Assembly: GCA_021807595.1 (NCBI GenBank)
Contig: JAKBCS010000054.1
Span: 1 to 32,442, forward strand
DNA: 32,442 bases
From: Planctomycetota bacterium
GTDB lineage: Bacteria > Planctomycetota > Planctomycetia > Gemmatales > Gemmataceae
Direction: 5' to 3'
Position numbers and translations under genes: made by a program. Below the pieces are notes generated by a model that saw only the letters and a list, made by a program, of their open reading frames with translations, ran no database searches and was not told the origin of the DNA. This document shows, piece after piece, positions 684-952 of this stretch. Numbering within the stretch: the first letter of the stretch is position 1; every line of letters starts with the position of its first letter.

Positions 684-721
684 CCAAAAAATAATCCGGC
701 GCTCCCTTGCGGAAGCGCCGG
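684..721 (-). terminator. Intrinsic terminator of the GEMM-I riboswitch transcript
   Basis: On the minus strand, bases 721-696 form a perfect 11-bp stem (one G-U) closed by a GCAA tetraloop, followed at 695-684 by a T-rich run (ATTATTTTTTGG). The plus-strand reading of the same hairpin has no T tract behind it, so the signal is directed leftwards. It lies about 30 bases after the riboswitch aptamer and only about 20 bases beyond the stop codon of the convergent FAH gene. It could be the riboswitch expression platform or a plain transcript end. Confidence 0.85.
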
Positions 722-749
722 AAGACCAGACTTACTTACGGGTCCCGTC

Positions 750-850
750 CATCCCTTCGGCAGCCTGGCAGCCTTATCCGTCCCCCCTCGGACGGTTAAG
801 AGCCCATAGCTTTGCGTCCCCGTCTCGCGACGGGTTCGCCTTTTTCGGGA
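750..850 (-). promoter_or_regulatory. Cyclic-di-GMP-I (GEMM-I) riboswitch aptamer, orphan
   Basis: Read on the minus strand, the segment has the GEMM-I hallmarks in order: AAAAAGGCGAACC; a hairpin CCCGUC-GCGA-GACGGG with a GNRA tetraloop; the invariant GGACGCAAAGC; a second hairpin arm CUUAACCGUCC paired with GGACGGAUAAGG; and a closing GGCUGCCGAAGGG. Aligned by eye to the Vibrio Vc2 aptamer, the three ligand contacts are kept: G20 (complement of base 839), A47 (base 812) and C92 (base 760). G at position 20 favours c-di-GMP over c-GAMP. No same-strand gene follows: the terminator at 684-721 comes next, and then the FAH gene runs in the opposite direction. A promoter-like pair at 924-952 suggests an independent RNA of about 230 nt. 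Confidence 0.9.
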
Positions 851-923
851 ACGGCCAAAAGCGCCGCTCACTACTCTTATCGAACGAGGCCGACCGAGCC
901 CTCGCCCCATCGACCACATCAGA

Positions 924-952
924 ACTGTAGAGCGCATTTATCGAATGTGCAA
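924..952 (-). promoter_or_regulatory. Predicted sigma70-type promoter for the riboswitch RNA
   Basis: On the minus strand TTGCAC (952-947) and TACAGT (929-924) are separated by 17 bases, a good match to the -35/-10 consensus. Transcription would start near base 917, about 65 bases before the aptamer. This is pattern matching only. Confidence 0.45.

Follow-up and report, generated by a model that had tools for sequence, protein, structure and literature searches.

The window analysed here, a stretch of 32,442 nucleotides from a Gemmataceae bacterium (Planctomycetota), carries on its minus strand one copy of a conserved unit, hereafter type A, composed of a c-di-GMP-I riboswitch aptamer, the nearly invariant tail GAAGGGAUGGACGGGACC, a linker, and a terminator. 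The unit is followed by no consistent gene, contains a pairing alternative to the aptamer fold, and in some relatives lacks the aptamer while its output part is retained. We consider it probable that type A is a self-contained gene of the Gemmata group encoding a c-di-GMP-responsive, two-state small RNA that acts in trans. A broader reading, namely, a widespread c-di-GMP-gated trans-acting sRNA with an invariant effector loop, whose effector half outlives the lost sensor, is in our judgment evenly balanced; it implies a modular sRNA whose second-messenger input can be detached, which might equally be right or wrong. Many genera preserve the tail, including those in which the sensor has disappeared, and type A therefore probably works as a regulator in its own right rather than as a switch preceding a gene.

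Architecture of the RNA in the window

A cmscan search against Rfam identified RF03167 (c-di-GMP-I-GGC, clan CL00126) at 849–755 on the minus strand, with a score of 71.2 bits (E = 3.7e-15; the gathering cut-off is 59 bits), as the sole family above its gathering score within the window. The match covers positions 1–80 of the 80-position model, so that the aptamer is a full-length family member. In Rfam, RF03167 is a cis-regulatory riboswitch, whereas type A adds a conserved tail and a terminator and has no consistent target gene. The c-di-GMP-I-GGC variant was reportedly described by Weinberg in 2017. The initial annotation had proposed a GEMM-I aptamer, and the c-di-GMP-I class holds, but the match is to the GGC variant rather than to RF01051. 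The three ligand contacts, which we take to be G20, A47, and C92 in Vc2 numbering, are kept as proposed: the motifs GGC, GACGCAAAG, and CUGCCG are present in the window (mapped onto Vc2 by eye), and nearly all aptamer-bearing type A relatives retain GGC, GACGCAAAG, and CURCCG. The following features were assigned, all on the minus strand.

947–952 (−), −35 box TTGCAC, candidate (sequence and comparison with relatives)
924–929 (−), −10 box TACAGT, candidate, spacer of 17 (sequence and comparison with relatives)
885–917 (−), predicted 5' leader hairpin (putative, from the fold of 918–687)
755–849 (−), c-di-GMP-I-GGC aptamer, RF03167 (cmscan)
772–802 (−), distal P3 hairpin with a G-rich loop (in aptamer-bearing and most aptamer-less forms)
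762–769 (−), switch strand GCCAGGCU, which can form the base of aptamer P3 or else the 5' side of the alternative hairpin (pairs with 732–725)
741–758 (−), nearly invariant tail GAAGGGAUGGACGGGACC, 3' strand of P1 and proposed output loop (alignments, pattern hits)
725–732 (−), linker AGUCUGGU, 3' arm of the alternative hairpin (alignments, pairing tests)
695–722 (−), intrinsic terminator stem-loop (hairpin scan, relatives)
686–694 (−), U-rich tract of the terminator (sequence)

This arrangement bears out the earlier view of an RNA that stands alone, is about 230 nt long, and combines a c-di-GMP-I aptamer with a promoter of its own and a strong terminator, as far as can be judged from the sequence; the span originally delimited, 684–952, runs almost exactly from the promoter to the T-run. 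The predicted transcript would extend from approximately 917 to 688 (−), i.e., about 230 nt, and the single-strand fold of 918–687 has z = −4.75. Relatives also have hairpins at the position of the 5' leader, but of different sequence.

The promoter-like pair noted at the outset, TTGCAC-17-TACAGT at 952–924 (−), was not reported by a strict sigma-70 scan of the window, and support for this putative promoter comes from comparison. The pattern TTG[AC]-N18/19-[CT]TA was found upstream of 21 of 25 aptamer-bearing relatives, vs. 3.8% of dinucleotide shuffles, and upstream of 30 of 36 aptamer-less ones (shuffles, 4–5%). The terminator hairpin at 722–695 (−) has 12 pairs, nine of them G-C, a loop of 4, and TTATTTTTTG behind it, and it deserves to be called strong, as proposed. 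A terminator lies no more than 70 nt from the tail in 23 of 27 aptamer-bearing type A loci and is present in all 37 aptamer-less loci (shuffles, 3–4% in both cases), with covarying double-sided changes in the stem. Promoter and terminator thus appear to be conserved as a unit, which is the arrangement expected of an autonomous small-RNA gene.

Distribution and genomic context

A search for the tail pattern, allowing up to three mismatches, yielded matches in 59 of 95 Gemmataceae genomes and 24 of 39 genera, usually one per genome; the few matches in plainly coding or otherwise unrelated sequence were left out of the locus counts. Carriers include Gemmata, Limnoglobus, Fimbriiglobus, and Planctomycetes bacterium Pan216; the RNA has its aptamer in Pan216 and is of the aptamer-less form in Limnoglobus roseus PX52 and Gemmata sp. 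IIL30. Outside Gemmataceae, a sister family contributes two genomes with the pattern and a third family three, and about 290 genomes in the other families of the class lack it. A reversed control pattern gave zero matches in a class-wide search, and the tail pattern was not found in the viral contigs searched. Fifteen exact matches outside planctomycetes were dismissed as chance, none having the P3 loop; most of them fall in one shared coding sequence, apparently phosphoketolase as judged by eye. A literature search, beyond whose reach most subscription papers lay, found no description of the type A RNA family.

In the window, the gene for a FAH protein (PF01557) lies on the opposite strand, converging on the RNA and ending at 666, and a HEAT-repeat gene is located upstream on the same strand (3330–1369). 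In the synteny check called for initially, one of three congeners, G003, shares both neighbors (82% and 94% identity for HEAT and FAH, respectively), whereas in G001, in G002, and throughout the other genera the RNA has different genes beside it. The similarity between the window and the G002 copy at its different locus spans 953 to 687, bounds that coincide with the promoter and the T-run. The unit has evidently moved within this genus, as judged from these alignments, and the RNA, carried in different surroundings, behaves like a gene in its own right, apparently without functional ties to FAH or HEAT. The suggestion that the RNA forms a 3' region of the HEAT gene is not supported, given its own putative promoter and the DUF2203-like gene found upstream elsewhere, and the "haem" in the name given to the HEAT gene found no confirmation in Pfam.

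Three observations concern these loci. Contigs of G001 (C21/C339) and G002 (C143/C274) break inside the RNA and overlap by about 41 bases, as expected of repeated sequence, and an intact copy is also present in G002, on C372. In the syntenic G003 copy beside FAH (L105, 3989–4161), the aptamer core contains GACUCAAAG, which perhaps weakens ligand binding, and the score is 10 bits below that of the window's copy. The HEAT-repeat gene itself contains three tandem units of about 35 bases (CGGCGGGGGTTTGTCCGGCTCATTCTTCGT) at 2732–2840.

Across the family, 39 type A loci have a member of a single protein cluster as the gene directly upstream on the same strand; the cluster member tested is DUF2203 (PF09969), and the window's neighbor differs. 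Downstream genes vary, including a SecA-like gene in sense, the LOG family in convergent orientation (the first convergent gene in 11 loci), and others.

Two RF03167 matches were found in this genome, and 40 of the 59 genomes searched carry up to seven. The surroundings of all 96 matches were fetched, genes were called with a simple codon-usage caller, and the matches fell into three groups, i.e., a cis group, type A, and type B. In the cis group (n = 55), the called downstream gene is in sense in 51 of 51 cases, 47 of them within 300 nt, and never convergent (0/51), with a terminator in 4 of 54 loci. The genes behind these aptamers, e.g., at the planctomycete loci L036, L040, and L075, encode Flp pilins and HtrA-like proteases; an assignment as DUF1559 pilins was rejected.

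Against this background, we regard it as unlikely that type A is a cis riboswitch with an attenuator, the unit having moved and lost its gene in the window's genus. Sense genes do lie within 300 nt in 6 of the 27 aptamer-bearing loci, and a Gemmata-like aptamer-less subgroup, in which the RNA may act in cis, has a sense SecA-like gene (by eye) in 12 loci. Yet the downstream gene is convergent in 20 of the 27, and the genes differ from locus to locus, in contrast to the uniformly sense genes of the cis members; moreover, the terminator lies outside both the aptamer fold and the alternative fold. In the window, as originally noted, no gene follows the RNA in sense, and hence there is no same-strand target behind the aptamer. 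A recent loss of such a gene was also considered at the start, but across the family no one gene consistently follows type A RNAs.

Type B comprises 23 of the 96 matches, with a shared upstream CAACGCCTTTCAT and the tail GGCGAAGAGCCCGUCCGUCCCC. Its downstream strands are mixed (7 antisense, 16 sense), and simple terminators are few. The second copy in the window's genome (L001, 1501–1587 (−); C37:19627–19713) is of this type, which is possibly a second stand-alone c-di-GMP RNA. Separately, G102 has a second type A copy (L206, near 942) with GACGCCAAG in the aptamer core and without the promoter match, probably a decayed paralogue.

Alternative hairpin and loss of the sensor half

RNAalifold predicted for the aptamer-less relatives a hairpin GCCAGGCUAC-[CGAAGGGAUGGACGGGACCC]-GUA(U)GCUUGGU just 5' of the terminator. 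In aptamer-bearing RNAs, the base of P3 is built from GCCAGGCU, to which the linker remains complementary, with eight contiguous pairs in the window (762–769 against 732–725). Over 40 distinct sequences, 94.2% of cells in the alternative hairpin are paired (92.5% in the long helix), vs. 9–52% when the partner is slid by 1–3 columns. Double changes occur in three pairs. Relative to column shuffles, the hairpin has 16 pair types against 13.2 (6/500) and 94.2% against 93.5% paired (37/500), an excess that is modest because the aptamer constrains one of the strands as well. Taken singly, only 12 of 24 RNAs reach p < 0.05 for linker complementarity. Two of the three outgroups from the third family, G051 and G055, show a weak alternative pairing or none (3/6 helix pairs).

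The predicted energies of the aptamer and alternative folds in the window are −55.3 and −54.4 kcal/mol, respectively, and across the 24 RNAs scored, G051 and G055 included, the two folds are predicted to lie at most 4.2 kcal/mol apart. Transcription attenuation by the alternative hairpin is not favored, as the hairpin ends 5' of the terminator stem. Two further candidates were rejected: a pairing of the linker with P2 (GACGGG with CCCGUC), as P2 varies in the outgroups and the linker does not; and a mini-ORF in the window, AUG GAC GGG ACC CGU AAG UAA, whose stop is not conserved and whose AUG is lost in G051 and G055.

The aptamer 5' half (GGCAAACC ... GACGCAAAGC) is missing from 37 type A loci. 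What these loci retain is the terminator, the alternative hairpin, the distal part of P3 with its G-rich loop and, in most of them, the promoter. The same aptamer-less form with the same retained parts is found in the two sister-family genomes. An Rfam search of six aptamer-less loci gave no family at the RNA and spurious microRNA matches elsewhere. Beside DUF2203, one and the same locus holds RNAs with the aptamer in some genomes and RNAs without it in others, and in the DUF2203 tree the aptamer-less ones form one clade (100/99); hence, a single sensor loss is enough to explain this locus, and the pattern in other lineages points to additional losses. The 3' end of the GGC aptamer, in cis members too, looks like the tail, so that the form with the sensor most likely came first.

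Proposed mechanism and its place among riboswitch RNAs

We infer from sequence and conservation that type A RNAs are transcribed, bind c-di-GMP, switch between two folds in the direction given here, and act in trans. Transcription would start at the RNA's own promoter and end at the intrinsic terminator, yielding about 230 nt. With c-di-GMP bound, GCCAGGCU would lie in P3 and GGGAUGG in P1, the aptamer being stabilized and GGGAUGG hidden. In the ligand-free state, GCCAGGCU would pair with the linker (AGUCUGGU in the window), displaying the nearly invariant loop AUGGACGGGA between flanking GGG and CCC. The displayed loop may then act in trans, with an mRNA or a protein as its partner; an output in trans is most likely given that the terminator is part of neither fold and no consistent gene follows. 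Several lineages without the sensor still possess the output hairpin, which would presumably be fixed in its ligand-free form. GGDEF domains, which synthesize c-di-GMP, are present in all 12 genomes tested, with four matches in this one.

A more specific version, in which the output of the stand-alone sRNA is CsrA binding and P1 hides the ANGGA (AUGGA) of the loop when ligand is bound, seems improbable to us. AUGGA does lie within the invariant loop, and CsrA was found in 59 of 59 genomes tested, with 2–17 matches (a single match in one partial genome). However, CsrA is equally universal in relatives without type A RNA, so that its presence is uninformative as a discriminating test; there are only one or two GGA sites, and the stretch reads AAGGA in the outgroups G051 and G055.

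We find it similarly improbable that the RNA is a sponge or reservoir that stores c-di-GMP without regulatory output. This role has been proposed for the stand-alone c-di-GMP riboswitch RNA of Bdellovibrio (PMC3627812), and the aptamer is well preserved in 25 loci. A store, though, would have no need of the tail, the alternative hairpin, the terminator, and the promoter, yet these parts (the promoter in most cases) are kept in the 37 aptamer-less loci and in the two aptamer-less sister-family genomes.

Antisense control of FAH by ligand-gated read-through, the initially proposed aim, comparable to the B12-controlled antisense RNA of Listeria, is very improbable: the convergent FAH gene does end 20 nt past the T-run, an arrangement common to G003, but FAH adjoins the RNA in two genomes only (G000 and G003), and while convergent orientation is common in type A, the opposite gene differs, leaving no conserved convergent target.

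To our knowledge, riboswitches are taught as cis switches, and free-standing ones are few and mostly known from one lineage. SreA, Rli55, and EutX of Listeria and Enterococcus are riboswitch-derived trans RNAs; type A is like them in bearing an aptamer and acting, as proposed, away from a sense downstream gene, although the ligands differ. The c-di-GMP-gated trans-acting sRNA proposed here is closest by description to merRNA of Bdellovibrio bacteriovorus, a 445-nt, massively expressed RNA and proposed c-di-GMP store (PMC3627812), in being a free-standing c-di-GMP riboswitch RNA with no conserved downstream gene. The two differ in that merRNA has been reported only from Bdellovibrio, whereas type A is about 230 nt long, occurs in dozens of genera, and has a conserved alternative hairpin and a tail outlasting the aptamer.

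In a survey of antisense-acting riboswitches, c-di-GMP riboswitches were the most prone to antisense orientation (PMC9943018), and some of those could be free-standing RNAs like type A. The proposed reading would thus call for caution wherever a c-di-GMP riboswitch has been scored as antisense-acting, since it may stand for an independent RNA. If the proposed reading is true, Gemmatales would possess a conserved, mostly single-copy family of c-di-GMP-sensing sRNAs, whose natural sensor-minus orthologues would separate input from output, and type A would offer a way into c-di-GMP action in planctomycetes.
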